Shown here in pieces: positions 6,528 to 11,496 of a stretch of DNA of 64,000 nt (position 1 is its first letter; each line of letters begins with the position of its first letter). The notes beneath the pieces were generated by a model. That model was not told where the DNA came from, did no database searches, and was given only the letters and a program-made list of their open reading frames with translations. The position numbers and the translations under genes were made by a program. The stretch comes from Campylobacterales bacterium (GTDB lineage: Bacteria; Campylobacterota; Campylobacteria; Campylobacterales; Sulfurospirillaceae), in NCBI GenBank assembly GCA_016930915.1, contig JAFGFU010000027.1, forward strand, positions 1-64,000. The letters run 5' to 3'.

Positions 6528-8327
6528 ATGGAACACTCTGACGCAAAAAAAATCAAAATTCTTTTTTTATTTGTTGTTGTACTTTTAGGATTTGTTATTT
6601 TTCTTGGGACACTTTTTTATTGGGCAACCATTGATCGAAGGCTTCCTCGCTTGGATCATAAAGAGGTCAATCATGCACTAAGAGGTAATATTATTAGTGC
6701 AGATGGTTTTAAACTTGCTACAAGTCAAAAGCTTTATAAAGCTTCTGTTGATACACGAAATATTGATCCTAAAAAATTTGATCTGTTTGTTAAACTCTAT
6801 TCGCTTTACAGTGGGGATGACCCAAAGGCTGTGGCGGCAACATTAAAAACCAATATAGGTACAACCGTTCTGTCTTATCGTATTGATTCTAAAACTGCAA
6901 AATATCTGCAAGAACTCTCTCGTAAACTTTATAAGCTAGGCGTGTTTAGAAGTTATGAAGATCCTAAGACGGGTGTGGCTTTTTTACACGGTCTTAGTGT
7001 CATTGAAAGTGGTGAAGATAGGGTCTACCCTTCTGTGGATTCTGCCACTCCCATTTTAGGTTATGTGAAAAAAATAGAGCATAAAAATATTACAAAAACG
7101 ACAGGCGTTAAGGGCATTGAGCGTTATTATGAAGATAAGCTTTCTGCTGTTCAGGACTCTTTACTTACGGGTTCTCGTGATATTTCTAATGCTATTATTT
7201 TGGATGGCGATAGTACGTCTTCAAGAAGGTATGATGGGTATGATGTTCATTTAACTATTTCTTTGAAAATACAAAAGATTCTTGAAAATGCATTAGATCA
7301 GCAGGCTAAAATCTTAGAAGCAAAAGAGATTGTTGTTGCGGTTATGAACAGTGAGACAGGGGAAATTTTAACACTGGCTTCTAGCAATCGTTTTAATCCA
7401 GATTTGATTGAAAAAAAAGATTATGGTGCGTTAAATATCTCTGCAGTAGAGTATATTTATGAACCAGGATCTGTTTTAAAACCTGTTGCTTTTGCGTTAC
7501 TTTTAAAAGCCAATAAAGTCAATCCATATGATATTGTGAATGTGCATGGAGGCAGTTATAAATTAGGTAATAAAATTATTAAAGATACACACAAGGCAGA
7601 TAAATTAACTGCTGAGGATGTTATTGTTGAGTCTAGTAATATTGGTACGGCGATTTTAGCGCAAAAGCTTGATGCGGTTGAATTCTATCAAGGGCTTAAA
7701 GATTTTGGATTTTCGTTAAGAAGTGGGGTTGATTTACCTTTTGAAAATCCTGGGGTAATTCCTGCAATGAACCGTTTTAATTCCTCCATTTATAAAGCAA
7801 CGGTTGCTTATGGGTATGGTATGAATGCAACGTTTATGCAAATACTCAAAGCCTATAGCGTTTTTAATAATAATGGTCGCATTTCAACACCTCGTTTGGT
7901 TAAAAAAATTGTTTCACCTGCTGGGCAAGAACTTTTTCCTGAAAAAGCTCCTGAAAATCAAGTGGTTCCTGTTTCGGTAGCAAAACGTATGCAAAAAATT
8001 CTTATTAAAGTTGTTCAAGAAGGTACTGCAAAGGGTACCCGTATGGAAGGTTTAGAAATTGGTGGAAAAACGGGAACGGCGCATATCGCTGAAGGTGGAG
8101 AGTATGTGCGTAGCTATAATGGTTCATTTTTTGGTTTTGCAAATGATAAAACCCATCACTATACCATAGGGGTACTGGTTCGAGAAGCTAAAAAAAGACA
8201 CGCTTATTTTGCGGCACAAAGTGCGGTACCTATTTTTAAAGAAGTGGTTGAAAAATTAGTAGAAAACGGCTATTTAACGCCGTCTTCTGAGATTCAAGTG
8301 AATCAAATTAGCAACAAAGCTCCTTAA
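6528..8327 (+). CDS. ftsI: Class B penicillin-binding protein (FtsI/PBP3, septal transpeptidase)
   Basis: About 599 residues from ATG 6528; a TTG three codons earlier (6519) is possible but neither has a clear ribosome site. One N-terminal membrane helix (about residues 9-33) anchors a periplasmic dimerisation domain and a transpeptidase domain. The active-site motifs are SVLK in YEPGSVLKPVAFA, SSN in VESSNIGTA, and KTGT in GGKTGTAHI. It cross-links septal peptidoglycan with FtsW. It follows fliE closely and its last 20 bp overlap the end of hemH on the other strand. RodA/PBP2-type function cannot be fully excluded from sequence alone. Confidence 0.92.
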   Translation: MEHSDAKKIKILFLFVVVLLGFVIFLGTLFYWATIDRRLPRLDHKEVNHALRGNIISADGFKLATSQKLYKASVDTRNIDPKKFDLFVKLYSLYSGDDPKAVAATLKTNIGTTVLSYRIDSKTAKYLQELSRKLYKLGVFRSYEDPKTGVAFLHGLSVIESGEDRVYPSVDSATPILGYVKKIEHKNITKTTGVKGIERYYEDKLSAVQDSLLTGSRDISNAIILDGDSTSSRRYDGYDVHLTISLKIQKILENALDQQAKILEAKEIVVAVMNSETGEILTLASSNRFNPDLIEKKDYGALNISAVEYIYEPGSVLKPVAFALLLKANKVNPYDIVNVHGGSYKLGNKIIKDTHKADKLTAEDVIVESSNIGTAILAQKLDAVEFYQGLKDFGFSLRSGVDLPFENPGVIPAMNRFNSSIYKATVAYGYGMNATFMQILKAYSVFNNNGRISTPRLVKKIVSPAGQELFPEKAPENQVVPVSVAKRMQKILIKVVQEGTAKGTRMEGLEIGGKTGTAHIAEGGEYVRSYNGSFFGFANDKTHHYTIGVLVREAKKRHAYFAAQSAVPIFKEVVEKLVENGYLTPSSEIQVNQISNKAP

Positions 8328-9246
8328 TACATGCTACAAACGCATCATCATCATTAGGACATTTAGCAACCAAATAATGCTCAAATCCTAAATGATGAGC
8401 TACTTCGGCGTATTCTATGCTTAGCTCAAATTCTGTTTCAGAGTTATCAATGGTAAAAGAGAGGGGTACAATGAGGGCATTTTTATTTTGAAGAGAGGAG
8501 AGCTTTTGCTCCAAAGAAGGCTCTAGCCATTTGAGTGGTCCTAGTTTGGATTGGTAGGCAAGATGAATTGCCTTAAAGTGCACTCCTTGTTTTGCCAAAA
8601 GTTCACTTAAAATCTTTACATGTAATTCAATCTCCTTTTGGTAAGGGTCACCCTTGTCGACAATTTTTTGAGGTAGAGAATGTGCTGAGAAAATAAGTTC
8701 GAATGTGTGTGCATCATATGCTCCTAGTGCCTCTTTGATTTTTTGGATGAGAAGTTGATTGTAAGAGGGGTTGTCATAAAAACGCTCAATCACACCTATT
8801 TTTCCTTTAAAGCCAAGTGCTTGAGCAACGTCCATAAAATCTTCAACAGAGGATTTTGTGGTTGTTGTTGAATAGTGTGGATAAAGAGGCAATAAAAGAA
8901 CTTCAGAGATTTCTTTTTCCATGATTTTTTGAATAACACCTTCACAAAAAGGAGGCGTGTAGCGCATTGCAAAGTTTACATGTAAAGAAGGAAGTTCTTT
9001 TTGCAGTTTTGCTACAAGTTTTTGGGTATAGCCAACCAGTGGCGATTTTCCTCCAAGCTTTGCGTAATTGGCTTGTGCTTTTTTAGTACGTGAAGCAGTA
9101 ATCATAAAAGCAATAAACCGTCTAAGCAGTGTACTTTTAGTTGTAATGATGTTTTTATCGTTGAACATATTGTTGAGAAAAAGCCCTACTTCTTGCAGAT
9201 TATTAGGCCCTCCCATATTGACTAGGATGAGTGCTTTTTGCGTCAT
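8308..9246 (-). CDS. hemH: Ferrochelatase
   Basis: Inserts Fe(II) into protoporphyrin IX (or the coproporphyrin intermediate) at the end of haem synthesis. The 312-residue protein has the N-terminal LVNMGGPNNLQEVGLFL, the metal-ligand histidine in FSAHSLP (about 186-192), and the conserved FTIDNSETEFEL with the catalytic glutamate near 270. It begins immediately after the stop codon of the small gene at 9247-9426, so the two are almost certainly co-transcribed. Its 3' end overlaps ftsI by 20 bp. A TTTACATGTAAA copy gives LHVN near residue 90, and a one-mismatch copy is at 8615. Confidence 0.97.
   Translation of the reverse strand: MTQKALILVNMGGPNNLQEVGLFLNNMFNDKNIITTKSTLLRRFIAFMITASRTKKAQANYAKLGGKSPLVGYTQKLVAKLQKELPSLHVNFAMRYTPPFCEGVIQKIMEKEISEVLLLPLYPHYSTTTTKSSVEDFMDVAQALGFKGKIGVIERFYDNPSYNQLLIQKIKEALGAYDAHTFELIFSAHSLPQKIVDKGDPYQKEIELHVKILSELLAKQGVHFKAIHLAYQSKLGPLKWLEPSLEQKLSSLQNKNALIVPLSFTIDNSETEFELSIEYAEVAHHLGFEHYLVAKCPNDDDAFVACIKELCC
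8975..8986. repeat. TTTACATGTAAA, in hemH (LHVN)
   Basis: Perfect copy; encodes Leu-His-Val-Asn. Confidence 0.95.
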
Positions 9247-9426
9247 TTAGTTCTTCTCCTTTTCTTGTTTTAAGCTTATGGGGTGACAGAGGTGTTTTTC
9301 TTCTTTTGAAACACGTGCGCACTTTTCACAGATAAATTTTGGTTTTGAGACAATTTTTACAAGTTTTTTCATGACGGTTTTTATCTCATCTTTTTTGAGT
9401 CCACAAAGCTTTTTTATTTTTCCCAT
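9247..9426 (-). CDS. Small zinc-ribbon-like protein, 59 residues, upstream of hemH
   Basis: A short frame from ATG 9426 (minus strand) encodes 59 residues. The first half is lysine-rich and helical (MGKIKKLCGLKKDEIKTVM). The second half has CEKC, then HLCHP, a C-x2-C...H-x2-C-H set that looks able to bind one metal ion. An AAGGAG ribosome site lies 7-9 bp before the ATG. The stop codon abuts the hemH start, implying translational coupling. I do not recognise a named family. A zinc-ribbon or metal/haem-related role is inference from residues and context. The codon pattern and ribosome site argue for a real gene. Confidence 0.82.
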   Translation of the reverse strand: MGKIKKLCGLKKDEIKTVMKKLVKIVSKPKFICEKCARVSKEEKHLCHPISLKQEKEKN

Positions 9427-9476
9427 GAAAGACTCCTTTTTAGATTTACAAGTCTAGCATAGAAAAGAAAATAATT

Positions 9477-9488
9477 TTTACATGTAAA
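9477..9488. repeat. TTTACATGTAAA, intergenic before GH17 gene
   Basis: Perfect copy in the divergent gap between the small zinc-ribbon gene and the GH17 gene, 50 bp from the former's start. Confidence 0.95.
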
Positions 9489-9543
9489 GGCTTTAAACTC
9501 CTTTTTTGTATAATCGCACCATTTCATACAGGAGCATTATGAC

Positions 9544-11496
9544 ATGAGTCATGCCGTTAAAATCGTTCTTTTTTACATTACCATGTTTCTTTCGTTGGGG
9601 CTGTTTTGGTTTTGGATGGCAAAGCCTTCAAGCGAGCTTATTACCTTACCATCCGATGTTAAATTGCAATGTCTCTCCTATGCCCCCTTTGGGAAAGATG
9701 ACTCTCCTTTTGATATTGCTAAGGGGTTTCGTCCCTCAAAAGAGCAGATGGAAGCAGATCTGGCAAAACTCTCAACGCTCACAAATTGTATTCGCACTTA
9801 CTCTAGTGTGGGCTTAGAAGCGTTACCTGAAATTGCACGCAAGCATGGATTGAAACTTTGGTTGGGGGCGTGGGTGAGTAGTGATGCTATGCTGACGCAA
9901 AAAGAGATTGAAACGGTTATCGATTTGGCGAAAGAACATCATGAGAATGTCGAAGCAATTGTTGTGGGAAATGAGGCGCTTTTACGCCGTGATGTCAGTG
10001 CTGCTCAGTTGGTTGGTTATATCGAACAGGTCAAGCGTGCTTTGCCTGATGTGGTTGTTACTTATGCGGATGTATGGGAATTTTGGAATAAGCATCCTGA
10101 AATTGCTCCTTCGGTGGATCGTGTGACCATTCATATTTTACCGTATTGGGAAGATAAGCCCATTAGTGTTGATAAAGCACTTTTACATGTAAAAAATATT
10201 TACAATGAAATGACGCAAAAAATCTCCAATAAAGAGATTGTGATTGGAGAGACAGGTTGGCCAAGCGAGGGTCGTATGCGAGAAGGTGCCTATCCTAGTG
10301 CACTTAATCAAGCTATTTTTACAAGGGGTTTTGTAAAAATGGCAGAAGAGAATGGGTGGAAATATAATTTTATTGAAGCGTTTGATCAGCCATGGAAGCG
10401 TATCAGCGAAGGCGCAGTGGGTGGATATTGGGGGTTATTTGATGCTAACCGTATTGATAAACATATTTTGCATGGTTTTGTTTCTAATTTCCCCAATGCG
10501 CTTTGGTTATTTGTGGGGAGTTTTATCCTTTCGCTGGTTGGATTGATTTGGTTATGGGGCATTCCAACATGTACATGTAAAAAAGCGCCTGTGTGGTTTG
10601 CCACTTTGTTTGGTGGTTCCGTGGCACTCACATGGCAAGCCAATATGTATTGGATTGTCTCGCGCAATACGTTAGAGTATGCTTGGGCAATTGTCTGTTT
10701 AGGAGTAGCTCTTATTTTGTGGCTTAAATTGGTGCAATTTCTTATAACAGAAGAGATAAGTTTTCATGGTTCTATGGCGCGGTTTATGCAAGTTATTACT
10801 TTAGGTGCGCCAAAAGGTGAGACATTTTGGGAAGATGCTTTGCATCTTTTAAGTGTTAGTATTGTGCTTATTATGGCACTCTCATTGGCATTTGATGGGC
10901 GATATTTAAACTTTGAGTTGGGAACCCTCGCACTGATTGCTATAACGTATGCCGTAATTTATGTGAGTACGGAGCGCTCATTACTCAATGGTTTAATGGA
11001 AAAAGTAAGTGGATTGGCGCTGTTTGTGTCGGCTTTAGTTGTTTTATTGCAAGAGAGTGCACGTAATGGATTTGCGTTGAATTGGGTTGTTTTAGTGGTA
11101 CTTTTTGGCTCCACGTTGTGGTTGTCCAAATCACGTTTGTGTGGTATTACGAAAAGCTTTTTGGTTCTTATTGCTAGTGCGCTTCTTTTTGTTCTTATTA
11201 AAGAGGGTGTTTATGTCAAAGAATCCCTCATCGAAGTGTGTGCAGCAGATGCGATGCTTTTTGTTTGTCAATTTCGAGCATTGCTTGGTAAGGTGATTTA
11301 TCTCAATTATATAGGTCTTGCAGGAAGTGTCGTTGCCATTTTTAGTGTGCTTTCTGGGAGTTATATTTTAGGGATGTTGAGCATGATTATGGGACTTTTT
11401 TGTCTTTTAACATTTAATGGTTTTTTAGGGGCAATTATTTTCACTTTGGGTTGGTGGGCAGTAGGCTATCGTTTAAATGAGAAGTGCGTATTGTAG
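9544..11496 (+). CDS. Membrane protein with glycoside hydrolase family 17 domain (beta-glucan modifying)
   Basis: 650 residues. A signal-anchor helix (about 5-25) is followed by a periplasmic GH17-like TIM barrel (about 38-310). The acid/base glutamate fits E144 in VVGNEALL and the nucleophile E236 in IGETGWPSEG. Residues 320-650 are highly hydrophobic, with about ten predicted helices. Bacterial GH17 proteins of this design cut or transglycosylate beta-1,3-glucans; a role in a periplasmic or exported glucan is inference. No glucan synthase is adjacent. Local protein-coding GC is somewhat higher than in neighbours. Two palindrome-related sites lie inside (10182 exact, 10570 one mismatch). Confidence 0.8.
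   Translation: MSHAVKIVLFYITMFLSLGLFWFWMAKPSSELITLPSDVKLQCLSYAPFGKDDSPFDIAKGFRPSKEQMEADLAKLSTLTNCIRTYSSVGLEALPEIARKHGLKLWLGAWVSSDAMLTQKEIETVIDLAKEHHENVEAIVVGNEALLRRDVSAAQLVGYIEQVKRALPDVVVTYADVWEFWNKHPEIAPSVDRVTIHILPYWEDKPISVDKALLHVKNIYNEMTQKISNKEIVIGETGWPSEGRMREGAYPSALNQAIFTRGFVKMAEENGWKYNFIEAFDQPWKRISEGAVGGYWGLFDANRIDKHILHGFVSNFPNALWLFVGSFILSLVGLIWLWGIPTCTCKKAPVWFATLFGGSVALTWQANMYWIVSRNTLEYAWAIVCLGVALILWLKLVQFLITEEISFHGSMARFMQVITLGAPKGETFWEDALHLLSVSIVLIMALSLAFDGRYLNFELGTLALIAITYAVIYVSTERSLLNGLMEKVSGLALFVSALVVLLQESARNGFALNWVVLVVLFGSTLWLSKSRLCGITKSFLVLIASALLFVLIKEGVYVKESLIEVCAADAMLFVCQFRALLGKVIYLNYIGLAGSVVAIFSVLSGSYILGMLSMIMGLFCLLTFNGFLGAIIFTLGWWAVGYRLNEKCVL
10182..10193. repeat. TTTACATGTAAA, in GH17 gene (LHVK)
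   Basis: Perfect copy, residues 214-217 of the barrel. A one-mismatch copy (TGTACATGTAAA) follows at 10570 in the linker to the membrane region. Confidence 0.95.

Follow-up and report, generated by a model that had tools for sequence, protein, structure and literature searches.

The described systems which come closest to the small protein analyzed here are the RCKP rubredoxin-like family (NF045720), the Zn_Ribbon_TF family (PF08271), the rubredoxin-like domain of rubrerythrin (PF21349) and the C2H2 finger arrays in PDB (PRDM9 and others). In PMC545781, rubredoxin-like proteins are described as electron donors in the oxidative stress of Desulfovibrio. The small protein, which is encoded in the window (the whole 64-kb stretch of DNA that was analyzed), is tiny and lysine-rich like NF045720 and shares with it a CxxC followed by a cysteine in a C-K-P context; the 15 over-cut-off members of NF045720 that were examined, however, have CxxC, then RCKP and then a second CxxC, whereas the small protein has one CxxC, a distant N-terminal cysteine and no second CxxC. 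Identity with NF045720 was rejected: the window protein gives no match, 3 of 29 family members match with a best E of 0.013 (the cut-off is 45 bits), and neither the window protein nor the rows examined of the family alignment (A4) have the second CxxC. No protein over the cut-off was found in 101 Campylobacterota genomes, the window's own included; matches at loose E (<=1) appear in 83 of these 101 genomes and in 13 of 14 controls, and they are meaningless because the controls match too and none is above the cut-off. PF08271 has a CxxC knuckle with short spacing to a further cysteine in common with the small protein, and 4 of 29 members match it at E<=1 (best E 0.002), the window protein not among them; the small protein differs by its fourth ligand, which is N-terminal and stands before a helix. 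PF21349 is present in the rubrerythrin adjoining the small gene at one locus (L058), but the window protein does not match it and has no second CxxC. The C2H2 arrays show a local likeness of 18 residues around KP-x-x-C-x-x-C-x-R; this identity was also rejected, as PRDM9 reaches its E of 5e-9 over the whole chain by summing repeats whose individual E is at least 10, and the best single stretch gives E 2.9 (ZBTB17).

Annotation tends to miss small proteins, and the family of this one is missing from the libraries searched. The window protein reached a best E of 0.11 in Pfam and also in PHROGs, and no match in NCBIfam (E<=10) or PADLOC (E<=0.01). The best single E over 29 members was 0.002 in Pfam, 0.013 in NCBIfam and 0.0027 in PHROGs, and over 47 members it was 0.0028 in PADLOC; phrog_16024, whose function is unknown, gave weak matches with 13 of 29 members (best E 0.032). 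No family of these four libraries fits, and the family is uncatalogued in them. No paper on it was found in the open-licence literature. The features of the locus are as follows.

9247..9426, minus strand: small gene, 59 aa, 6.85 kDa, pI 9.8, net charge +11 (ATG 9426-9424, TAA 9249-9247)
9433..9438, minus strand: ribosome site (AAGGAG) for the small gene, 6 nt 5' of its ATG
9403..9405, minus strand: codon of Cys8, likely metal ligand, Cys in 47 of 47 aligned members
9319..9330, minus strand: Cys33-x2-Cys36, likely metal ligands, both Cys in 47 of 47
9286..9288, minus strand: codon of Cys47, likely metal ligand, Cys in 45 of 47 and His in 2 of 47
9247..9261, minus strand: 3' terminus of the small gene, in which the hemH ribosome site (AAGGAG, 9261-9256) supplies in frame the Lys-Glu of a tail specific to the lineage
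8308..9246, minus strand: hemH, ferrochelatase, ATG begins at 9246
8261..8288, minus strand: terminator-like stem-loop 3' of hemH (consensus scan)
9544..11496, plus strand: divergent gene of 650 aa, glycosyl hydrolase family 17-like

The minus-strand frame encodes the full protein MGKIKKLCGLKKDEIKTVMKKLVKIVSKPKFICEKCARVSKEEKHLCHPISLKQEKEKN and is preceded by AAAAAGGAGTCTTTC-ATG. The initial annotation had described a ribosome site at good spacing, a stop codon abutting the hemH ATG and a cysteine cluster, and these are all borne out: the AAGGAG stands at 9438-9433, the TAA directly abuts the hemH start, and the protein contains FICEKCARVSKEEKHLCHP, to which a fourth conserved cysteine (C8) near the N-terminus is now added. 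The AAGGAG of hemH lies within the 3' end of the small gene, 9 nt 5' of the hemH ATG, and the hemH product is a true ferrochelatase (PF00762, E 2e-94; TIGR00109 over its cut-off). The two genes look like a two-gene unit because a stem-loop follows hemH and a divergent gene starts at 9544. The consensus scan found 3 terminator-like sites in 8200..9700 against 1.3 expected by shuffling, and an Rfam search of the same interval gave nothing above the gathering score.

The small gene is real, coding and under selection, and its product is presumably translated. It was matched in 19 of 24 genomes of the same genus (one further match, L020 with E 0.041, was left out of the counts), and in 18 of these 19 the start codon, C8 and the ribbon lie in one frame. 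The exception is G012, in which the ribbon is preserved yet out of frame with the start and C8, owing to a shift within a run of A; this is either decay or a sequencing error. Among 17 sequences the median dN/dS is 0.137, with values below 1 in all 59 usable pairs of 136, that is, those with dS between 0.05 and 2; the window and its nearest comparison (L003) differ in 5 codons, 4 of them non-synonymous, which is too few to weigh. Conservation of the frame in close relatives, on which the initial annotation had staked its proposal, holds. A chance open frame without function might be supposed from the short length, the five genus genomes without a match and the frame-shifted sixth, but this reading is already refuted because the frame is conserved, and the dN/dS together with homologues across many phyla leaves it practically no probability.

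Relatives of the small protein were found in many bacterial phyla, and the distribution of the family is patchy. A profile scan of the phylum gave matches in 27 of 397 genomes at E<=6e-5 and in 39 at E<=0.01; the remaining 12, with E from 9e-4 to 1e-2, are weak and were excluded from the count, at least one of them (L049) looking real because it is flanked by the same neighbours as L043. Further profile scans, each counting its seed genome, matched 36 of 247 genomes at E<=1e-5 in the phylum of the Desulfobacteraceae genome of L083; within the class to which Fusibacter belongs they matched 3 of 245 genomes (E<=1e-5), and within that of Aeromonas 3 of 369 (E<=1e-6). When named records were scanned, 49 loci (L051-L099) were found, many from metagenome-assembled genomes, which include Sulfurospirillum, Sulfuricurvum, Malaciobacter, Aeromonas, Thaumasiovibrio, Chlorobaculum, Fusibacter, Desulfobacteraceae, Marinilabiliales, Opitutaceae, Calditrichaeota and others; one of them (L094) has two stops within the match and was left out of alignment A4. 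The family, marked by one CxxC ribbon and a distant N-terminal cysteine, reaches across many phyla and is present in cultured Sulfurospirillum, Aeromonas and Fusibacter. We take the groups which carry it to be often anaerobes and microaerophiles. No phage match was found by tblastn, and 85 pattern matches in viral contigs included no relative; the plasmid search gave one Aeromonas caviae record, which is chromosome-sized (4.9 Mb) and has no annotated features at the match.

Variants of the family were also seen in the Desulfobacterota. Proteins at three loci (L145, L148, L150) carry what read as tandem CxxC...C ribbon units related to the family, and those at seven others (L130, L131, L134, L135, L137, L140, L141) form a subfamily that starts with Cys-x-Gly-(Asp/Asn/Glu)-His, has an H-x-C close by and carries a CFNCGR ribbon. 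Five genomes in the scan of the phylum of L083 contain three family matches each.

C8, P29, C33, K35 and C36 are invariant in 47 aligned members, R38 is kept in 45 and L46 in 46, while H48 of the small protein is not conserved. C47 is Cys in 45 members and His in two Desulfobacteraceae rows, so the ligand set with the spacing of the window reads C-x24-C-x2-C-x10-C/H and gives the four conserved Cys/His ligands generally taken to mark a zinc ribbon. Such a set is as expected of a structural zinc-type site, and zinc binding is likely from this pattern. Zinc sites tolerate a Cys-to-His swap, and the swap at C47 speaks against a rubredoxin-type iron site and against a plain disulfide. The zinc-ribbon-like, metal-related character proposed at first is in this way supported as a prediction. 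The net charge of 46 members has a mean of +9.7 and a range of 0 to 14. The AlphaFold2 model of the small protein has a mean pLDDT of 82 and a pTM of 0.57, with five models spanning pLDDT 64-82, and it places a predicted helix (12-27) between C8 and the ribbon. Foldseek with this model gave 15 matches, none at E<=0.001, and none of the 16 chains compared by VIA-align matched structurally at Z>=2.

The search for homologues before hemH, suggested in the initial annotation, gave the homologues in 19 of 24 genus genomes, with abutment to hemH in 5 of these 19. Four of the five have no gap (G000, G016, G020, G003) and one has 2 nt (G002). The small gene lies 0.6-0.7 kb upstream of hemH in four genomes (G007, G011, G013, G015), about 2 kb upstream in two (G006, G009) and 2.8-3.3 kb upstream in five (G001, G008, G010, G012, G017); in 11 of the 19, other genes stand between the two. 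In G014 and G018 they are on different contigs, and in G023, where the small gene is on a 7-kb contig, hemH was not seen. The genes intervening in the longest arrangement are of the Lcl_C-domain, short-chain-dehydrogenase-like, DegT-like and Gfo/Idh types (Pfam for Lcl_C at L055 and Gfo/Idh at L180, the others read from sequence). Among 49 named loci with flanks of up to 5 kb, hemH is present in only 7, all of the hemH-linked Sulfurospirillum type (L051-L057), and was not found in the 42 others (L058-L099). Since abutment is limited and hemH is missing from most named loci, a role cannot be argued from hemH; the coupling described at first stands for this locus, where the direction is shared, the stop abuts the start, the hemH AAGGAG is inside the frame and a terminator-like site follows, but not for the genus, and the metal-related or regulatory role drawn from the partnership is unlikely.

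The hemH contact is confined to one clade. Out of 20 genomes in which the hemH start was examined, 4 belong to the window clade (G000, G016, G002, G003), which is supported at 96/98 in a hemH tree without outgroup, 12 have the 3' end of a Gfo/Idh-type gene 0-4 nt before hemH, and four (G006, G009, G011, G015) have neither at this place. The Gfo/Idh-hemH junction is by parsimony the older one, because the genomes with it include G019, G021, G022, G014 and G018, all placed by the hemH tree outside the large cluster that the other species form, and the small gene probably came to abut hemH once the intervening genes were lost; as the tree has no outgroup, the polarity of this change is a matter of inference. 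The C-terminal tails KEKN, KEKL and KEKK occur in the window clade only and are absent elsewhere in the genus, and as the tail is the hemH AAGGAG read in frame as Lys-Glu, it suggests a derived junction. The hemH link looks like an accident of one lineage, and the case is a worked caution, since a textbook-looking contact proved limited to one clade.

Two observations were made around these junctions. In G020 (L051/L002), hemH is split into two frames in a metagenome-assembled genome, perhaps through an assembly error. In L053-L057 and L180 the small gene comes after a gene of some 186-199 aa (e.g. L054:4330-4929), which has no Pfam match (tested on L054) and is absent from the arrangement of the window.

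The small gene can be dispensed with, and part of the genus is losing it while retaining hemH: 5 of the 24 genus genomes lack it and a sixth carries a frame-shifted copy. All five genomes without a match keep hemH, one of them (G019) being only 77% complete. At the old site in G004 there is a remnant of 26 nt (L181:602-627) in which both the beginning and the end of the small gene are recognizable and which reflects an internal deletion; the frame-shifted copy of G012 (L016 from 1482) belongs to a neighbour of G004 in the tree.

The preceding ORF is on the same strand as the small gene in 35 of 42 loci holding one, and the following ORF is on the opposite strand in 24 of 45, so that the small gene often ends a run. 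A Desulfoferrod_N-rubrerythrin gene stands before it in 5 of 8 named Sulfuricurvum loci (L058, L059, L074, L082, L089); of the three others, one starts at the edge of its contig. Catalase precedes it in L064 (316 nt away), AhpC in L069, MsrBA in L076 (Calditrichaeota), a rubrerythrin-type gene in L150, an ankyrin gene that itself follows catalase in L078, and a CCP/MauG gene, 379 nt before, in a Campylobacterales; ferritin adjoins it in L072 (divergent), L123 and L144. These neighbours were assigned by Pfam in L058, L064, L069, L072, L076, L123, L144 and L150, and in L059, L074, L082 and L089 by likeness to L058. Polyphosphate genes form another set, assigned by Pfam on L080 and L083 and by likeness for L086, L090 and L093. 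In Fusibacter and kin (L080, L086, L090) a Ppx/GppA gene and then polyphosphate kinase lie 3' of the small gene, with a CHAD-HD protein gene before it in L080; in Desulfobacteraceae (L083, L093) CYTH lies before and a SixA-like phosphatase after; and in L127 PPK2 and then a Ppx-like gene lie 3'. Many other neighbours (FliL, SAM methyltransferase, HDOD, sugar enzymes) have no such theme.

Counted over 47 loci, peroxide/iron genes make up 10 of 89 adjacent ORFs against 4 of 301 farther ones, with five of the ten from Sulfuricurvum, and polyphosphate genes 8 of 89 against 6 of 301; both counts are post hoc, as the trend was seen first and the seeds were drawn from the neighbours. With outside seeds in 29 Desulfobacterota loci, the pairwise search gave 1 of 57 adjacent against 0 of 39 others for peroxide/iron, to which Pfam adds L144 and L150, and 1 of 57 (weak, E 5e-4) against 3 of 39 for polyphosphate, PPK2 not being seeded. 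The peroxide/iron trend is not clearly repeated there and is a lead, not a result. The frequent peroxide/iron or polyphosphate neighbours suggest a stress-linked accessory protein.

The reading which we tentatively prefer, with confidence somewhat below even, is a small basic zinc-ribbon accessory of a widespread uncatalogued family which acts in peroxide, iron or phosphate stress and whose position before hemH is lineage-specific. The protein would be basic and probably cytosolic; C8 before the helix and C33, C36 and C47 in the ribbon after it would hold one zinc ion and give a compact lysine-rich fold. Most likely it would have no enzymatic activity and would serve as an accessory that docks on a partner protein or a polyanion under such stress, with zinc thiolates that may be either structural or peroxide-sensitive, and the place before hemH would be a junction of the lineage and not a function. 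Conservation in the genus and across phyla, the low dN/dS, the invariant ligands, the model with its helix, the charge, the peroxide/iron neighbours and the junction argument speak for this reading, whose stress role is plausible. Against it stand the post hoc count, the weak Desulfobacterota repeat, the theme-less neighbours and the dispensability, and on the side of the fold the pTM of 0.57, the pLDDT range of 64-82 and the lack of a solved-fold match.

Part of the same evidence may be read as a zinc ribbon whose lysine-rich surface binds polyphosphate or RNA, with zinc only holding the fold, and we regard this as possible though clearly less probable. The mean charge agrees with it, as do the flanking polyphosphate genes of L080, L086, L090, L083, L093 and L127 and the post hoc excess of polyphosphate seeds. 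Basic charge alone, however, is common among small proteins, the Campylobacterota loci of the 47-locus count had no polyphosphate seed match, and in the Desulfobacterota the single adjacent match was weak. A role for the four thiolates in holding iron, as a rubredoxin-like electron carrier feeding rubrerythrin or peroxidase, is unlikely: the five Sulfuricurvum loci beside rubrerythrin and the slight likeness of three members to the RCKP model would favour such a carrier, but a second CxxC knuckle is lacking, one ligand can be His, the gene also stands beside genes without a redox role, and the rubrerythrin of L058 already has its own rubredoxin-like domain.

A hemH-related role, in which the small protein would deliver metal to HemH or regulate hemH by translational coupling, is likewise unlikely. 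It could draw on the abutting stop, on the hemH ribosome site inside the small frame and on the 16 of 19 genus genomes that have hemH in the same orientation no more than 3.3 kb downstream, but abutment occurs in only five of the 19, the gene is lost without loss of hemH, a Gfo/Idh-type 3' end sits equally tight before hemH in 12 of 20 genomes, and the 42 named loci L058-L099 show no hemH. To the stress-accessory reading we add a more specific and rather speculative form: a tiny zinc-thiolate family appended by anaerobes and microaerophiles to peroxide/iron and polyphosphate genes, which might act as a peroxide-released zinc switch or a polyphosphate-binding adaptor. If true, it would link oxidative stress to phosphate storage.

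The window also contains a repeated palindrome. The sequence TTACATGTAA occurs in 32 copies in 64 kb against 0.15 expected from dinucleotide shuffles (for example 9478-9487, 8976-8985 and 10183-10192), with a median spacing of 1.9 kb and 25 of the 32 copies inside ORFs of at least 100 aa, which cover 92% of the window. Its 12-mer TTTACATGTAAA, which was not found in open-licence papers, is a highly iterated palindrome of Sulfurospirillum and may be likened to HIP1 of cyanobacteria or to an uptake signal. It has 681 copies in the 2.23-Mb genome, where the reversed control has 0, and 14 to 792 copies in each of the 24 genus genomes; among the other 17 of the 41 genomes searched, one from another genus of the family has 27 copies and the remaining 16 have 0-1.
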